Shown here: piece by piece, positions 23,738 to 36,678 of the stretch | Numbering within the stretch: the stretch's first letter is position 1 | Layout of the letters: each line of letters begins with the position of its first letter | From: Nocardiopsis sp. | GTDB lineage: Bacteria > Actinomycetota > Actinomycetes > Streptosporangiales > Streptosporangiaceae | Direction of reading: 5' to 3' | Length of the DNA: 39,188 nt | Assembly: GCA_021154785.1 (NCBI GenBank) | Contig: JAJKHX010000443.1 | Span: 1 to 39,188 of the forward strand | Made by a program: the position numbers and the translations under genes | The notes under the pieces: model-generated | What the model was told of the DNA's origin: nothing | The model's database searches: none | Seen by the model: the letters and a program-made list of their open reading frames with translations, nothing else

Positions 23738-25105
23738 ATGCTGATCTTGCTGAGCGACGGGGCCGGGCTGACCTCCCGGCAGGCGGCGACGGTACTGGCG
23801 CGGGCCGGGCACCAGGTCGAGGCGCTGTCCCCGCGCGGGCTGTGCCTGTGCCGGATGACCCGCCACGTGCGGCGGGTGCATGACGTCCCGCCGGTGGGCC
23901 GGGACCCGTTCGGGTGGCTGGACGCGGCGCTCGGCATCGCCGCGCGCCGCGGCGCCGACGTACTGCTGCCGGTCCAGGAGCAGGTCGCGGTGATGGCGCT
24001 GGGCCGGGACCGGATCGAGGCGGCCGGGCTGGCGACCGCGGTGCCGTCCTTCCAGGCGCTGGCGCAGGTCCAGGACAAGGTGTCGGCCCACCGCACGCTG
24101 GCCAGGATCGGGGTACCGCAGCCGCCCGCGGTGATCGCCGCCAGCGCGGCGGAACTGGCCGACGCCGCGGCCCGGCTGGCGGCGGGCGGCGAGGGGACGC
24201 CGCTGAGGCTGCCGGCGTTCGCCAAGACGCCGGTCGGGACCGCGTCGGCGGGGGTGCGGCGGGTGAGCTCACCGGAGGAACTGCGGCGGCTCGCGGCGGA
24301 CTGGGACGGGCAGGACGCGTTCGGCCAGGGGGGCGTGCTGGTGCAGCAGCCGGTGGCCGGGCCGCTGGTCATGGTCCAGTCGGTGTTCGCCGGCGGCGAG
24401 CTGGTCGCGTTCGGAGCCTGCGAGCGGGTCCGCGAGGGCTCCGCGGGCGGATCCAGCCACAAGCTCGGGCGGCCGTGGCCGCAGGCACGTGAGCACCTGG
24501 CCCGGCTGGGCGCGGCCCTGGGCTGGCACGGCGCGCTGTCGGCCGACGTCATCGACGGCCCGGACGGCCCGATGTTCATCGACATCAACCCGCGCCTGGT
24601 CGAGCCGGCCAACGCGCTGGCCTGCGGCGTGGACCTGACCGGGGCGCTGGTCGAGGTGGCCATGGCGGGGCCGGCCCAGGCATCGGCAGCAGGGCCAGGC
24701 ACGGTACGACCGCAGCCGGACGGGGCGCCCGGGGCGCGGACCCACCAGCTGCTGCTGGCGGTGCTCGGGGCGGCGCAGGGAGGGCGGCGCCGGGACGTGG
24801 CCCGCGAGCTGGCCGACGCCGCGCGGCGACGCGGGACCTACCGGGACAGCCAGGAGGAGCTGACGCCGGGCGGCGGCGACCTGCTGGCTCCGGTTCCCGT
24901 CGCGGTCGCGGCGCTGGCCACGCTGATCTCGCCGCCGGCCTGGCGGTGGTTCGTGGGCGGCAGCGCCGGGGCGTACTCGCTGACCCCGGCCGCGTGGGGT
25001 GAGCTGACCGCGACGGCCCGGGCGCTGGTCGCGCCCGGGCCGCAGGCGGGCCGGAGGGGAGGTCATCCCGGCCGGCCCGGGGATCAGGAAATCAGCCTCC
25101 GCTGA
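23738..25105 (+). CDS. Orphan ATP-grasp ligase
   Basis: GGAGG lies 7-8 nt before ATG 23738; the product has 455 residues. Residues 1-110 form a pre-ATP-grasp domain. VQDKVSAHRTLARIGVPQPP (111-130) begins the ATP-grasp fold, FAKTPVGTASAGV holds the phosphate-contacting lysine, and LSADVIDGPDGPMFIDINPR (267-286) gives the Mg-binding Asp270, Asp282 and Asn284. It resembles carbamoyl-phosphate-synthase-type ligases that join a carboxylate to an amine via an acyl phosphate. A roughly 150-residue C-terminal part is not recognisable. No peptide precursor or partner ligase is nearby. It overlaps the convergent binding-protein gene by 14 bp. Confidence 0.85.
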   Translation: MLILLSDGAGLTSRQAATVLARAGHQVEALSPRGLCLCRMTRHVRRVHDVPPVGRDPFGWLDAALGIAARRGADVLLPVQEQVAVMALGRDRIEAAGLATAVPSFQALAQVQDKVSAHRTLARIGVPQPPAVIAASAAELADAAARLAAGGEGTPLRLPAFAKTPVGTASAGVRRVSSPEELRRLAADWDGQDAFGQGGVLVQQPVAGPLVMVQSVFAGGELVAFGACERVREGSAGGSSHKLGRPWPQAREHLARLGAALGWHGALSADVIDGPDGPMFIDINPRLVEPANALACGVDLTGALVEVAMAGPAQASAAGPGTVRPQPDGAPGARTHQLLLAVLGAAQGGRRRDVARELADAARRRGTYRDSQEELTPGGGDLLAPVPVAVAALATLISPPAWRWFVGGSAGAYSLTPAAWGELTATARALVAPGPQAGRRGGHPGRPGDQEISLR

Positions 25106-30525: not shown

Positions 30526-31554
30526 ATGCCTCCTGGCAAGTCTCCTGCGACCATCAGCGACGTGGCCCGCCTGGCGGGCGTGTCGCCGGGCACGGTGTCC
30601 AAGGCGCTCAACGGGCGCGGCGCCCTGTCGCACGGCACCATCGCGCGCATCCAGCAGGCCGCCGAGCAGCTCGGCTACCAGCCGAACGCGCTGGCCCGCG
30701 GGCTGCTGGCCGGCCGCACCTTCACGGTCGGGCTGATCACCACCGACAGCTTCGGCCGGTTCAGCATCCCGGTGATGCAGGGCGCCGAGGACGCGCTCGG
30801 CCCCGGGCGCATCTCCGTCTTCCTGTGCGACAGCCGGGACGACCAGATCCGGGAGCAGCACTACCTGCGTACCCTGCTCGAGCGCCGGGTCGACGGCATC
30901 ATCGTGACCGGCCGCCGCCAGGACCCGCGCGAGCCGATCGGCAGCGACATACCGGTCCCGGTCGTCTACGCGATGACCTCGTCCACCGACCCCGCCGACC
31001 TGTCGCTGGTCCCCGACGACGCCGAGGGCGGCGCCGACGCGGTGCGGCACCTGCTCAGCACCGGGCGCACCAAGATCGGTCACGTGACCGGCCCGCGCTC
31101 GTTCCTGGCCTCCCGGCTGCGGACCCAGGGCGCGGAGGAGACGCTGGCCGCGGCCGGGCTCGAGCTGGCCACGGGCGGGCCGCTGTACGGCGAGTGGACC
31201 GAGGAATGGGGCCGCCAGGCCACCGACGCCCTGCTCCGCGCCGCCCCCGACCTGGACGCGATCTTCTGCGGCAACGACCAGATCGCCCGGGGCGTGGCCG
31301 ACGCCGTGCGCGAGGCGGGCCGGCGGGTGCCCGAGGACATCGCGCTGGTCGGCTTCGACAACTGGGAGGTCATCGCGGCTGCCTGCCGGCCCCCGCTGAC
31401 CACGGTGGACATGAACCTGCGGGAGCTGGGCCGGATCGCGGGCGAGGAACTGCTGGCGGCCATCGACGGCCACCCGAGCGCGGGCATCCGGCGGCTGCCG
31501 TGCACGCTGGTGCTGCGGGAATCGAGCCGTCCGCGGCATGCTGCCCGGACCTAG
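30526..31554 (+). CDS. LacI-family transcriptional regulator of the GH31/ABC operon
   Basis: The 342-residue protein starts with a LacI HTH, ATISDVARLAGVSPGTVSKA (8-27), and the hinge helix NALARGLLAGRT. The periplasmic-binding-protein-like domain follows (VGLITTDSFGRFSIPVMQGA, DAIFCGNDQIARGVADA, LVGFDNWEVIAAACRPPLTT). It should repress the divergent glycosidase/transport operon and release DNA on binding the sugar or a product. GAGGGAGG precedes ATG 30526. The 255 bp between it and the GH31 gene hold the promoters and operator listed separately. Confidence 0.93.
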   Translation: MPPGKSPATISDVARLAGVSPGTVSKALNGRGALSHGTIARIQQAAEQLGYQPNALARGLLAGRTFTVGLITTDSFGRFSIPVMQGAEDALGPGRISVFLCDSRDDQIREQHYLRTLLERRVDGIIVTGRRQDPREPIGSDIPVPVVYAMTSSTDPADLSLVPDDAEGGADAVRHLLSTGRTKIGHVTGPRSFLASRLRTQGAEETLAAAGLELATGGPLYGEWTEEWGRQATDALLRAAPDLDAIFCGNDQIARGVADAVREAGRRVPEDIALVGFDNWEVIAAACRPPLTTVDMNLRELGRIAGEELLAAIDGHPSAGIRRLPCTLVLRESSRPRHAART

Positions 31555-31645: not shown

Positions 31646-31683
31646 GGCGCCGTTATCGGGCGCCGTTATCCGGCGCCGTTACT
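31646..31683. repeat. Three tandem 13-bp repeats
   Basis: GGCGCCGTTATC occurs at 31646-31657 and 31659-31670, and as GGCGCCGTTACT at 31672-31683. The last copy contains the TAA stop of the DUF2237 gene (31679-31681, minus strand). The unit includes the palindrome GGCGCC. The repeats lie in the 124-bp gap between two converging genes and may help end transcription, or be simple slippage. Confidence 0.6.
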
Positions 31684-32071
31684 CATCGAGGGCGGCGGCG
31701 TCGGCGGGGACGTCGACGGAGTACTGCCGCAGGATTTCCAGCGGGACGATCTCGAGCGCGCGCTCGTGGGTCGAGGCCAGCACCACCGGGGCGGCGGCAC
31801 CGTCCTTGTGCGCCTGCAGCCAGTTGGCCGCGGTCACGCACCACCGGTCGCCCGGTACCAGCCCGGGGAACCGGAACTGGGGCATCGGCGTGGCCAGGTC
31901 ATTGCCGATCCGGCGCTGGTGCTCGAGGAACTCCGACGTCACCACCGCGCAGATGGTGTGGCTGCCCAGGTCGTCCGGGCCGGTCATGCAGTACCCGTCC
32001 CGGTAGAAGCCGGTGAGCGGATCGGTGCCACATGACTCGAGCTCGCCGCCGAGCACATTACGGTCGCTCAT
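31679..32071 (-). CDS. DUF2237 family protein
   Basis: The 130-residue protein matches DUF2237 (PF09996) along its length, beginning NVLGGELESCGTDPLTGFYR, then DGYCMTGPDDLGSHTICAVV and GDRWCVTAANWLQA. Conserved Cys and Asp residues are kept, but the function of the family is unknown. ATG 32071 gives the usual MSDRNVLGG start. It is divergent from the Rieske oxygenase gene with 84 bp between; the operator there lies at the far side, so this gene may be expressed independently. Confidence 0.9.
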   Translation of the reverse strand: MSDRNVLGGELESCGTDPLTGFYRDGYCMTGPDDLGSHTICAVVTSEFLEHQRRIGNDLATPMPQFRFPGLVPGDRWCVTAANWLQAHKDGAAAPVVLASTHERALEIVPLEILRQYSVDVPADAAALDE

Positions 32072-32119
32072 GCATTGCAGTATCCGCACCGTGACCGCCG
32101 GTCCGCAAGATCACGTGCC

Positions 32120-32172
32120 TGGACAGGTCCCGGCGGGGCGTTTAGTCTTGACTGTATGGTCAGTCAAGACTA
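32120..32172 (+). promoter_or_regulatory. Leaderless Rieske promoter with a 12-bp-arm operator spanning the start codon
   Basis: TGGACA (32120-32125) and TAGTCT (32143-32148) are 17 bp apart, and the -10 ends 7 nt before ATG 32156. TAGTCTTGACTG (32143-32154) and CAGTCAAGACTA (32161-32172) are perfect complements; the 6-bp spacer contains the ATG. The inner 20 bp, TTGACTGTATGGTCAGTCAA (32148-32167), reappears with three changes at 35081-35100. A bound regulator would cover the -10, the transcription start and the first codons. Confidence 0.8.
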
Positions 32173-33364
32173 TCGTTTCCGTCCCTCCGCTCCTCCCCCG
32201 GCGCCGCTCGATCGCGGTGAACTCGGGCTCTCGCTCCGCCCGTTCGGTGAAAGCCGGATGCTGCCGCGGGCGGCGTACGTGGACCCCGCCGTGTTCGGCT
32301 GGGAGCAGCGGCACTTCTTCGGCGGCGGCTGGATGTGCGTGGCGCGCAGCGAGCAGCTGCCGGAGCCCGGTGACCAGCGCGCCGAGGCCACCGGCGAGGG
32401 CGGCGTGCTGCTGGTCCGCGGCGAGGACGGCGAGCTGCGGGCGTTCGCGAACAGCTGCCGGCACCGCGGCCACGAGCTGCTGCCGTGCGGCCAGGGCGCC
32501 CAGGGCAAGGCGATCATCTGCCCGTACCACGCCTGGACCTACTCGCTGGACGGGTCGCTGCAGGGCGCCGCGGGGTTCAGGAAGCAGCGCGGCTTCGACT
32601 TCAGCGAGTGGGGCCTGAACCAGCTGCCGGTGACCGAATGGCACGGGCTGGTGTTCGTGGACGGCTCCGGCGGCGCGGGCTACGGTTCCGGGTCGCTGAC
32701 CGAGGCGCTGGCCAAGCTGGACGAGATCGTCGCCCCGTACGAGCCGGAGCGCCTGGTGACGGCCGGCGGGCACCGCTACGACGCCAGGGCCAACTGGAAG
32801 ACACTCACCGAGAACTATCACGAGTGCTACCACTGCCCGTCCATCCACCCCGAGCTGTGCCAGGTCAGCCCGCCCCAGAGCGGCGAGAACTACGCCGCCG
32901 ACGGCGCCTGGATCGGCGGCTGGATGGACCTGCGCGACGGCATGACGACGATGTCGCTGACCGGCGCGAGCGACGGCGTGCCGCTGCGCGGGCTGGACGC
33001 CCACGGGCTGCGCACCGTCGTCTACATCAACATCTTCCCGAACGTGCTGCTCAGCCTGCACCCGGACTACGTCATGACACACCGGCTGATCCCGGTGGCC
33101 GCGGACCGCACCACGATCGAGTGCACCTGGGCCTTCGCGCCCGAGGCAGTGGCCCGGCCGGACTTCGACCCCAGCTACGCGGTGGAGTTCTGGGACATCA
33201 CCAACACCCAGGACTGGGCCGCGTGCGAGTCCGTGCAGCGCGGGCTGTCCACGCCGCACGCCACCCCCGGGCCGCTGTCGCCGTCCGAGGACGCGGTCTA
33301 CTCCTACGTCACCTGCCTCGCCCGGGGCTACCTCGGCCAGTCGGTCTGGAGCCCGGTAGCGTAG
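32156..33364 (+). CDS. Rieske non-heme iron oxygenase, alpha subunit
   Basis: The 402-residue protein has the Rieske cluster ligands Cys101, His103, Cys122 and His125 (SCRHRGHE, IICPYHAWTY), and the mononuclear iron site Glu223-x2-His226-x4-His231 in NYHECYHCPSIHPEL with Asp353 in TQDWAACESVQ. NYxECxHCPxxHPEL is also typical of the branch with glycine-betaine, carnitine and stachydrine oxygenases, which act on N-methylated compounds, as well as of some aromatic ring oxygenases. It needs a reductase, which is not in the window. ATG 32156 has no ribosome site and is probably leaderless. The GPx gene starts 5 bp after the stop. Confidence 0.9.
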   Translation: MVSQDYRFRPSAPPPAPLDRGELGLSLRPFGESRMLPRAAYVDPAVFGWEQRHFFGGGWMCVARSEQLPEPGDQRAEATGEGGVLLVRGEDGELRAFANSCRHRGHELLPCGQGAQGKAIICPYHAWTYSLDGSLQGAAGFRKQRGFDFSEWGLNQLPVTEWHGLVFVDGSGGAGYGSGSLTEALAKLDEIVAPYEPERLVTAGGHRYDARANWKTLTENYHECYHCPSIHPELCQVSPPQSGENYAADGAWIGGWMDLRDGMTTMSLTGASDGVPLRGLDAHGLRTVVYINIFPNVLLSLHPDYVMTHRLIPVAADRTTIECTWAFAPEAVARPDFDPSYAVEFWDITNTQDWAACESVQRGLSTPHATPGPLSPSEDAVYSYVTCLARGYLGQSVWSPVA

Positions 33365-33369
33365 GCCGC

Positions 33370-33861
<492 letters not shown>

Positions 33862-33883: not shown

Positions 33884-35038
33884 TCAGGCGAGCTGGGCGG
33901 GGCCGCGTTTGGTCATCTGGCGGGCGATGATCATGCGCTGGATCTCGCTGGTGCCCTCCCAGATGCGCTCGACCCGGAGCTCGCGGAAGAAGCGCTCGGC
34001 CACGTTCTCGCGCATGTAGCCGCGGCCGCCGAACACCTGGACCGCGCGGTCGGCGACCCGGCCGGCCATCTCGGAGGAGTAGAGCTTGGCCATCGAGCAC
34101 TGCGCGTGCGAGATCTTCACGTCGGCGCCGCGGTCGATGCCGCGGGCCGTCTCGTAGACCATGGCGCGGGCCGCGAACAGCTCGGTCAGGCTGTCCGCCA
34201 GCATCCCCGCCACCAGGCCGTACTCGCTGATGGGCTGGCCGCCGACCACGCGGCCGGCCGCGAACGCGGTCATCTCCGCGGTGAGCCGCCCGGCCGCGCC
34301 GAGGCAGCGGGCGGCCACCATCATCCGCTCGAACCGGAACCACTCGTACGCGAAGGCCATCCCGTCGCCCTCGGCGCCGACCAGGTTCGCGGCCGGGACG
34401 CGGACGTCTTCGAACGCGACGATCGGGTGGTGGTGGCCGATCGTGTGCGAGTACTCCGGCGTCCGCACCACCCGGACGCCCGGGCTGGGCAGGTCGACCA
34501 GGAACATCGCGTGCTCGCCGCTGGGCAGCTTGCCCTGGAAGAACGCGTAATCAGCGGCGTTGTAGGAGGTCACGTGCCACTTGACCCCGTTGAGCAGGTA
34601 CTCGTCGCCAGCCGGGACGGCGGTCGCCTCGATCGCGTCGACGTCGGAGCCCGCGCCCTCCTCGGTGATCGCGTAGCACTCCTCGCGCTCCCCCGCGATC
34701 GTCGGCCGGACGTAGCGCTCGAGCTGGTCCGGGGTAGCCACGGCGGGCAGCCAGGACGGCGGGGTGGTCGCGACCCAGCCCAGCGCGTTGGTCACGCGGC
34801 CCATCTGCTCCTGGACCAGTACCTGCTGGAGTGCGCTGCAGCCGCCGCCACCGAGGTCGCTCGGCATGTTCGTGGCCGTCAGGCCGAGCTCACGGGCGCG
34901 CTTGGCGTGGGCAGCGGTGACGTCGGGCGGCAGCTCGCCGCCGGATCGTTCGGCTTCTTCCTCGAACGGGATCAGCTCGTCCGCGAACCCGCGGGCCCGC
35001 GCCTGGATCTGCAGATCATCATCGGTCAACCCGTACAT
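33884..35038 (-). CDS. Acyl-CoA dehydrogenase
   Basis: The 384-residue protein has the ACAD fold: CYAITEEGAGSDVDAIEATA binds FAD and substrate, VQVFGGRGYMRENVAERFFR lies in the helical domain, and RIWEGTSEIQRMIIARQ contains the catalytic base Glu361. It should introduce a 2,3-double bond into an acyl-CoA and pass electrons to ETF. The acyl group is unknown. It is divergent from the DAO-type gene; the operator at 35081-35100 is 43 bp upstream of its ATG (35038). It converges on the GPx gene with 22 bp between. Confidence 0.93.
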   Translation of the reverse strand: MYGLTDDDLQIQARARGFADELIPFEEEAERSGGELPPDVTAAHAKRARELGLTATNMPSDLGGGGCSALQQVLVQEQMGRVTNALGWVATTPPSWLPAVATPDQLERYVRPTIAGEREECYAITEEGAGSDVDAIEATAVPAGDEYLLNGVKWHVTSYNAADYAFFQGKLPSGEHAMFLVDLPSPGVRVVRTPEYSHTIGHHHPIVAFEDVRVPAANLVGAEGDGMAFAYEWFRFERMMVAARCLGAAGRLTAEMTAFAAGRVVGGQPISEYGLVAGMLADSLTELFAARAMVYETARGIDRGADVKISHAQCSMAKLYSSEMAGRVADRAVQVFGGRGYMRENVAERFFRELRVERIWEGTSEIQRMIIARQMTKRGPAQLA

Positions 35039-35080: not shown

Positions 35081-35100
35081 TTGACTGAATGTTCAGTCTA
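35081..35100. promoter_or_regulatory. Second copy of the Rieske operator, in the ACAD/DAO divergent promoter
   Basis: TTGACTGAATGTTCAGTCTA matches the site at 32148-32167 in 17 of 20 positions and contains the perfect 16-bp palindrome GACTGAATGTTCAGTC. It lies 42 bp from the ACAD start and 22 bp from the DAO start, so one protein dimer could control both. TTGACT at its left end could be a -35 for the DAO gene. Confidence 0.75.
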
Positions 35101-35122: not shown

Positions 35123-36325
35123 ATGACTGAAACCGCTGATGCCGTCGTGGTGGGCGGCGGGACGATTGGCGCCTGGTGTGCCTATTTCCTGCGCCAGGCC
35201 GGGCTGGGCCGGGTCATCCTGCTCGAGAAGGGCATCCTCGGCGAGGGTGCCAGCAGCCGCGCGGCCGGCGTGGTCCGGCTGCAGGGCGGCACGCCGGCCG
35301 CGGTGCGGCTGAGCCAGTGGTCCCGCGCCTTCTACCTGCGCCAGCGCGACGAGATCGGGACCGACTCCGGCTTCACCGAGCAGGGTTACCTGCTGCCCTG
35401 CTTCACCGAGGCGGAGGTGGCGGCCGCCCGTTCGCGGATGGAGATGCAGGCCGCGCTCGGCCTCCCGGTGCGGTGGCTGAATCCGGGTGAGGCGGACGCG
35501 GCCAACCCGGCGCTCGCGCCCGGCCAGACGCTCGGCGGCACCTTCTGCGACCAGGACGGGTTCATCGCGCCGCCGCGCAACGTCGCCGCCTACACGGTGG
35601 CGCTGATCCGCAGCGGCGTCGAGGTCCGCGAGCACGTGGCTTTCCTGGGCCTGGGCGGGGACGGCACTCGTTCGGCTGAAGGGTCTTCGGCTGGCTCGGT
35701 CGAGACCAGCCAGGGGCGGATCAGTGCCGGCCTGGTCGTGCTGACCGGCGGGCCGAAGCTGGCCGAGGTCGGCCGGCGGGCCGGCCTGCGCATCCCGGCC
35801 GGCGGCGTCCGGCACCAGGTGGCGGTGACCGAGCGCCACCCCGGCCTGGACCCGGCCCGGGTGCCGATGGTCTTCGACCTGGCCGAAGGACTGTACTGGC
35901 GGCCGGAAGAGGGCGGCCTGCTGTTCGGCATGAGCAACCCGGACGAGCCGCCCGGCGACAACCGCGAGGTGGACGAGGAGTACCTGGCCACGATGCGGAC
36001 CCGGATGGCCGCGCTGGTCCCGGCCACCGCCGGGCTCGGGCTGCGCCGGGTCTGGGCCGCGACCATCGACTACACCTCGGACCACATGCCCATCATCGGC
36101 CGCGCGCCGGGGCTCGAGCACGTCACGGTGGCCGGGGCGGCCGGGGCCGGCATGATGTGGGGCCCGGGCCTGGCCCGGGCCACGGCGGACGTCGCGCTCA
36201 CCGGCGCCTCCGACGTGCTCGACACCTCAGGGCTCGGCCTCGACCGCTTCGACGAGGCCGGCCGCAGCCGCCTCGCCACCGACCCCATCGCATTGCCTTT
36301 CCCGGAGAGGATCGCATCATCATGA
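35123..36325 (+). CDS. DAO-type FAD-dependent oxidoreductase (sarcosine oxidase-like)
   Basis: The 400-residue protein has an N-terminal FAD fold, DAVVVGGGTIGAWCAYFLRQ, the EKGILGEGASSRAAGVVRLQ loop, and a C-terminal block, TIDYTSDHMPIIGRAPGLEH then AGAAGAGMMWGPGLARATAD, as in the DAO superfamily (sarcosine, dimethylglycine and D-amino acid oxidases, and the sarcosine oxidase beta subunit). It should oxidise a secondary or tertiary amine, or an amino acid, at a C-N bond. ATG 35123 is chosen; GTG 35117 is in frame. The cupin gene overlaps its stop as ATGA, so the two are translationally coupled. Confidence 0.88.
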   Translation: MTETADAVVVGGGTIGAWCAYFLRQAGLGRVILLEKGILGEGASSRAAGVVRLQGGTPAAVRLSQWSRAFYLRQRDEIGTDSGFTEQGYLLPCFTEAEVAAARSRMEMQAALGLPVRWLNPGEADAANPALAPGQTLGGTFCDQDGFIAPPRNVAAYTVALIRSGVEVREHVAFLGLGGDGTRSAEGSSAGSVETSQGRISAGLVVLTGGPKLAEVGRRAGLRIPAGGVRHQVAVTERHPGLDPARVPMVFDLAEGLYWRPEEGGLLFGMSNPDEPPGDNREVDEEYLATMRTRMAALVPATAGLGLRRVWAATIDYTSDHMPIIGRAPGLEHVTVAGAAGAGMMWGPGLARATADVALTGASDVLDTSGLGLDRFDEAGRSRLATDPIALPFPERIASS

Positions 36326-36678
36326 TCACCGTTACCCCGTACCTGGCCGCCGCGGCCGACGCCAAACTCGAGGACTGGGGGCCGCTCGAGGAGGCCCTGC
36401 CTAATCCCGGGGGCGAGCCGATGCAGACCTCGGGCATCACCTTGTGGTCCGGCGAGGGCGCCCAGGAGGCCGGCGTCTGGGAATGCACGCCGGGCCCGTC
36501 CCGGTGGAGCCTGGAGGACAACGAGTTCGTGCACATCCTGTCCGGCCGGATGACGGTCACGCCGGACGGCGGCGAGCCGGCCGAGATCGGCCCGGGTGAC
36601 ACCGCCGTCTTCCCCCGCGGCTGGGCCGGCACCTGGCAGCTCCACGAGACCATCCGCAAGCTCTACGTCCTGTTCTGA
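36322..36678 (+). CDS. Cupin_3-type cupin (EutQ/ureidoglycine aminohydrolase-like)
   Basis: The 118-residue single-domain cupin has GVWECTPGPSRWSLEDNEFV, HILSGRMTVTPDGG and PAEIGPGDTAVFPRGWAGTW, a DUF861/PF05899 pattern seen in (S)-ureidoglycine aminohydrolase and EutQ-like proteins. The HxH metal motif is not obvious; Glu and His in the NEFVHI strand may act instead. It could release ammonia from, or bind, a product of the FAD enzyme. ATG 36322 has GGAGAGG upstream and overlaps the FAD gene stop by 4 bp. Confidence 0.87.
   Translation: MITVTPYLAAAADAKLEDWGPLEEALPNPGGEPMQTSGITLWSGEGAQEAGVWECTPGPSRWSLEDNEFVHILSGRMTVTPDGGEPAEIGPGDTAVFPRGWAGTWQLHETIRKLYVLF

Follow-up and report, generated by a model that had tools for sequence, protein, structure and literature searches.

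Why does the start codon of a Rieske oxygenase gene in Nocardiopsis sp. lie in the middle of an inverted repeat, and is that repeat to be read as DNA, as RNA or as an accident? We examined the gene within a stretch of 39,188 nucleotides, referred to here as the window (L, G and C numbers are our handles for loci, genomes and contigs). The arms of the repeat, TAGTCTTGACTG (32143-32154) and CAGTCAAGACTA (32161-32172), pair at 12 of 12 positions, and the 6-bp spacer between them, TATGGT (32155-32160), holds the Rieske ATG, confirming the original prediction; a scan of 31800-32500 returned it as the sole inverted repeat. The Rieske protein scores below the cutoff of its best NCBIfam match, the GbcA equivalog NF058607 (173.8 bits, cutoff 670), and is only a Rieske oxygenase of the general GbcA kind, not a GbcA equivalog. 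Its upstream neighbour, a DUF2237 gene (31679-32068), is on the opposite strand. A glutathione peroxidase-like frame, read from the sequence, lies after the Rieske gene at about 33379-33861, and similar frames are found in L007 and L147.

Table 1 Features at the Rieske start and at related sites in the same genome. Positions are those of the window unless a contig or locus is given.
Feature	Position	Strand	Remarks
-35-like hexamer TGGACA	32120-32125	+	Spacer of 17 to the -10
-10 hexamer TAGTCT (TANNNT)	32143-32148	+	7 nt between its end and the ATG
Full 12-6-12 perfect inverted repeat	32143-32172		Each arm conserved except for its outer 5 bp
Putative operator TTGACTGTATGGTCAGTCAA	32148-32167		Conserved part of the repeat
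ATG start codon and predicted transcription start (A = +1)	32156-32158	+	Pyrimidine at -1
Rieske oxygenase alpha-subunit gene, GbcA-like	32156-33364	+	402 aa plus stop; PF00355, PF00848
Acyl-CoA dehydrogenase-like gene, putative regulon member	33884-35038	-	Like gene beside operator in L147, L148, L149
Second putative operator TTGACTGAATGTTCAGTCTA	35081-35100		Between two divergent genes, acyl-CoA dehydrogenase-like (-) and DAO-type oxidoreductase (+)
DAO-type FAD oxidoreductase gene, putative regulon member	35123-36325	+	Like gene beside operator in L147, L148, L149
EutQ-like cupin gene	36313-36678	+	Downstream of the oxidoreductase
BetI-like TetR gene	C269:9364-10017		Separate contig from the Rieske gene
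Third putative operator	L086:10090-10109 (G000:C269)		Between BetI-like tetR and CrtO-like FAD oxidoreductase genes

The repeat by itself is weak evidence, because comparable palindromes arise in random sequence: of 200 copies of the window generated by a first-order Markov model, 27 held at least one perfect palindrome with 12-bp arms (spacer 0-10), and none held one as AT-rich as the Rieske repeat. The window has a second palindrome of this kind (25014-25042, 5-bp spacer), which is GC-rich and perhaps a terminator. Upstream of the ATG, moreover, the Rieske frame continues without a stop as far as a TTG at 32075, and the ORF alone is therefore no proof of a start at 32156. These two points would fit a chance palindrome, with the true gene start or promoter elsewhere, for example at the upstream TTG, a reading that comparison with homologues makes extremely improbable. 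The site recurs at the corresponding place in 20 distinct homologues, and this conservation is strong evidence. Of 297 genomes of the order, 11 contain the exact 18-mer TGACTGHATGDTCAGTCA (0/297 for the reversed pattern as control), and in each of the 11 the Rieske ORF begins at the ATG within it. In L097, L089, L094 and L096 the frames above the ATG run into a stop within 3 to 21 codons, and the TTG would come before the conserved promoter. Chance is excluded by the count of exact sites, their coincidence with the ORF start and the alignment of the operator loci.

The homologous loci were fetched from named genomes and 80 were kept, with a site of at most one mismatch at the Rieske start in L006, L007, L008, L009, L010, L013 and L037. 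The 20 distinct operator-bearing starts comprise 17 intact and 3 degenerate sites (L011, L015, L032), counted as 19 in the alignment plus L092 and leaving out the duplicates L087 (= L009) and L089 (= L008). Across the phylum, the exact 18-mer occurred in one of 396 sampled genomes, which was the genome itself. The exact element is rare and clade-bound, though two operator-bearing loci, L010 from an Acidimicrobiaceae MAG and L019 from Kineosporia, fall outside the family.

The alignment also defines the extent of the site. The conserved core is a 20-mer, TTGACTG-TATGGT-CAGTCA(A/G), comprising about 7 bp of each arm, and the outer TAGTC/GACTA match is peculiar to this genome among the loci compared. 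Conservation at 20 Rieske starts supports the proposal of a putative operator with the start codon in its spacer; as to its length, it stands as a 20-mer and not as the 30-mer of the full repeat. The original prediction had also placed the -10 box in the left arm. This holds for the 12-bp arm of this genome, which spans the box solely through the non-conserved outer extension, but not for the conserved 20-mer, which overlaps the box by one base (its last T) and otherwise begins just downstream of it. Mycobacterial L015 and L032 retain the left half-site, the -10 and the ATG, with a degenerate right half-site. The Rieske start of L032 lies about 40 bp past a permease gene on the same strand.

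Promoter elements accompany the site throughout. A TANNNT hexamer ends 6 or 7 nt ahead of the ATG in all 19 operator loci scored, which supports a promoter of the leaderless type, and 18 of the 19 have, at a spacer of 17-18, a -35 that agrees with TTGACA in four or more of its six positions (in two only in L013). In L007, absent from this scripted scoring, the -10 was read by eye as TAGGAT. In L015, L019, L032, L088 and L097 the operator lacks its first T; there the -10 is shifted by one base, which keeps its end on the initial T of TGACTG. There is no Shine-Dalgarno sequence before the ATG, the bases there being those of the promoter and operator themselves. We infer transcription to start at the A of the ATG from the spacing to the -10 and from the pyrimidine at -1, with 17 of the 19 Rieske sites having T there and the other 2 having C; the +4 base is G in 12, A in 4 and T in 3. 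Mapped starts in Mycobacterium tuberculosis prefer a pyrimidine at -1 and T at +2, according to the available portion of that study (PMC3898074).

A candidate repressor is encoded elsewhere in the genome, on contig C269. The protein has both a TetR-type DNA-binding domain (PF00440, 43.0 bits, cutoff 24) and a BetI-type C-terminal domain (PF13977, 80.1 bits, cutoff 27), as does the protein from L010, and is below the BetI equivalog cutoffs (TIGR03384, 72.1 vs 201.3; NF001978, 65.4 vs 118). An orthologue, as one match at E 1e-15, is present in 11 of 11 exact-site genomes (60-73% identity in the other ten), whereas no match at E 1e-40 was obtained in 44 genomes without the exact site, the negatives being picked by hand from 40 genera and the positives chosen for having the site. 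Each of the 11 genomes has an operator ahead of its TetR gene: nine of them, by script, at 68-212 bp from the match, G272 with 2 mismatches in its site, and G266 at about 180 bp, placed by coordinates. The scripted scan returned no site for L105, where the wrong strand was probably taken (the TetR match contains a stop). In L010 the operator separates the Rieske gene from a downstream TetR gene whose product is 53% identical to the C269 protein, and a TetR of 39% identity is encoded within the Rieske locus of L019. A palindrome common to the promoter region of the TetR gene itself and to its putative targets is in keeping with a TetR-type operator. In this genome, the link between repressor and Rieske gene is drawn from shared sites and co-occurrence, because the two genes are not adjacent.

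The shared sites are not confined to these two genes. This genome contains two more, each with one mismatch (the second and third operators in Table 1); at the third, the start of the CrtO-like oxidoreductase is preceded by CGGAGG. Allowing at most one mismatch, the symmetric operator GACTGAAYRTTCAGTC matched 33 sites, against 1 for the control, in the 11 exact-site genomes, with none in G272. Genes beside or near the operators include a PotABCD-kind ABC transporter, a class III aminotransferase, a cupin and a CoA-ligase-like gene, of which the ATPase and the cupin were classed by profile, and the aminotransferase, permease and ligase were named from reading the sequence. The company of a GbcA-like Rieske oxygenase, a DAO-type oxidoreductase and a Pot-like transporter suggests a role for the putative regulon in amine or quaternary-amine breakdown. 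Upstream of the aminotransferase gene of G270, two operators lie side by side (L147:1060-1098).

The aminotransferase was considered as a second gene that starts within its operator, with M-L-S-Q in L147 and L032 and M-F-S-Q in L150, and was set aside. Among the seven loci compared, the operator contains no ATG in L014 and L149, where the start lies downstream; in L015 and L151 its ATG opens no long frame; and L147 and L032 have a purine-rich Shine-Dalgarno-like stretch before a downstream in-frame start. L150 is ambiguous. A TAGACT hexamer is part of the operator at the aminotransferase sites and at that of the C269 oxidoreductase, where a Shine-Dalgarno-like stretch precedes a translation start further downstream. 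In several of these sites the operator-borne TAGACT is likely to be the -10, which would be a use of the same operator in another register.

The centre of the site distinguishes the Rieske gene from the rest. A symmetric centre, AAYRTT, is found in 16 of 18 non-Rieske sites with at most one mismatch among the matches listed (G290 is not among them). The Rieske sites depart from this consensus with their pyrimidine at -1, which is what a transcription start at the A of the ATG would predict. The same discrepancy, TATGGT against AAYRTT, could mean that the operator serves a different regulator, either another TetR or the LacI-type protein encoded at 30526-31554, whose gene ends only about 600 bp upstream; moreover, the pairing of this TetR with the Rieske gene is drawn from sequence. 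We consider a different regulator unlikely, given that the TetR accompanies the exact site in every genome that has it and in none of those picked without it, that its own upstream region bears the same half-sites and that it adjoins the Rieske gene in L010. No LacI-type gene was noticed next to the Rieske gene in the locus listings, which were read without a dedicated search for one.

The right half-site also has a consequence for the protein. Codons 2-4 (GTC AGT CAA) coincide with the coding right half of the operator, which would dictate them in this genome, in support of that part of the original prediction. Proteins from intact-operator loci open with M-(V/I/F)-S-Q, followed by a variable linker. 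All 16 loci scored have AGT as codon 3, whereas in the rest of these genes AGT accounts for 15 of 375 serine codons; the 16 loci are related and do not count as independent events. None of 22 operator-less homologues yielded M-(V/I/F)-S-Q from any start candidate, a comparison confounded by descent as these homologues are mostly below 60% identity; several of them show a Shine-Dalgarno-like stretch. In G229 (L153), which is 70% identical and in which no TetR was detected, the Rieske protein opens with M-T-S-Q. A -10, a start of the leaderless type and, as codons, the right half-site ATGACCAGTCAA are retained there, and the left arm is lost. This start looks like a relic of the operator. Since the right half-site is kept here without the left arm, the N-terminal codons can persist without an operator.

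The repeat had further been proposed to act in RNA, with read-through transcripts from upstream folding it into a hairpin that hides the AUG, in addition to its role as an operator. RNA spanning 32137-32178, if transcribed from upstream, would fold at -21 kcal/mol (z = -7.5 against shuffles), but such a fold comes with any perfect palindrome, and the outer 5 bp of the stem are not conserved, leaving about 7 bp that are inseparable from the symmetry of the DNA. An mRNA from the conserved promoter would have the AUG as its first codon and so lack the left arm, and RNA beginning at the AUG has no significant structure (-4.5 kcal/mol, z = -0.7). The hairpin would require a transcript from upstream, of which the window gives no sign; its nearest upstream gene is antiparallel. 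Read-through is possible in mycobacterial L032, from the permease gene described above, yet the right arm has decayed in L015 and L032, the loci where it is likely. The analysis gave no support to this part of the original prediction, and we judge dual control to be very unlikely.

We return to the repeat as DNA. It is highly probable, in our view, that a BetI-like TetR repressor uses it as operator, and that this operator lies over the start point of a leaderless promoter of the sigma-70 type. TGGACA and TAGTCT would be recognised by RNA polymerase, which would start at the A of the ATG, 7 nt past the -10, and the resulting mRNA would begin with AUG and be translated without a Shine-Dalgarno site. 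A bound TetR dimer would cover about -8 to +12, occluding the start point and the -10 and blocking the polymerase, until a ligand, probably an amine or quaternary-amine metabolite, releases the repressor and permits transcription from the A of the ATG. The site, its position, the promoter elements, the joint occurrence with the TetR gene and the constrained codons can be read from the sequences themselves, whereas binding, the direction of control, the point of transcription start and the ligand are what we infer from them. Since the right half-site is coding, it would fix the N terminus as Met-Val/Ile-Ser-Gln, which is joined to the conserved enzyme by the variable linker.

A wider generalisation appears reasonably likely, with somewhat less assurance. 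A single 20-bp element, whose symmetry axis lies within 2 bp of +1, may combine the functions of a repressor operator, a transcription initiator and a leaderless start codon in Streptosporangiaceae-like, Kineosporia and Acidimicrobiaceae genomes. Repressor recognition would then dictate residues 2-4 and override codon choice, with the centre retuned at -1 and +4 for initiation. If true, this would be a natural case of one short stretch of DNA under the three constraints of protein binding, transcription start and coding. It can be tested without changing the protein, as synonymous changes at AGT and CAA are predicted to impair repression. A start-site annotation for a clade of Rieske enzymes and a consensus operator for a BetI-like regulon would also be gained, together with a warning that N-terminal conservation can stem from a DNA-binding site and not from protein function.

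Repressor genes can have leaderless transcripts, as do tetR of Tn1721 and lambda cI. Both are named as the first leaderless genes in the available text on AcuR of Rhodobacter sphaeroides (PMC3017554). There, a TetR-family repressor acts on a leaderless acuR-acuI-dddL operon, and an inverted repeat with a 6-bp spacer, TAATAGAC-n6-GTCTATTA, overlaps the promoter of an mRNA that begins at AUG. However, that text puts the repeat upstream of acuR, where it overlaps the promoter, and does not describe the start codon as part of it; the half-sites differ, and the leaderless gene is the regulator itself (PMC3017554). The leaderless Zur targets of Corynebacterium glutamicum are likewise actinobacterial, start at the A of the ATG and have an operator over the core promoter, but Zur is a Fur-family regulator with a 21-bp box in which the portion of the paper available does not place the start codon (PMC2823685).

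Two further systems resemble the Rieske site through the regulator or its target. BetI shares the C-terminal domain PF13977, and its box, given as ATTGACG-CGTCAAT in the accessible part of the source, has the TTGAC/GTCAA half-sites found here (PMC12442346). The half-sites are 2 bp apart in the betI box, in contrast to 10 bp at the Rieske start, and the protein described here is far below the BetI model cutoffs. In M. tuberculosis, the Rv3160c-Rv3161c system pairs a TetR-type repressor with a Rieske-type oxygenase and has a palindrome near the -10 region, whereas its repeats begin at -29 upstream of the operon, are other palindromes and are not said to contain the start codon in the sections of the report available (PMC7810876). 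A start codon inside a TetR operator was not described in the literature searched, parts of which were available as excerpts. Within those sources, the kind of control proposed here is already known, whereas we did not encounter in them a start codon placed within the centre of the operator and conserved as such.
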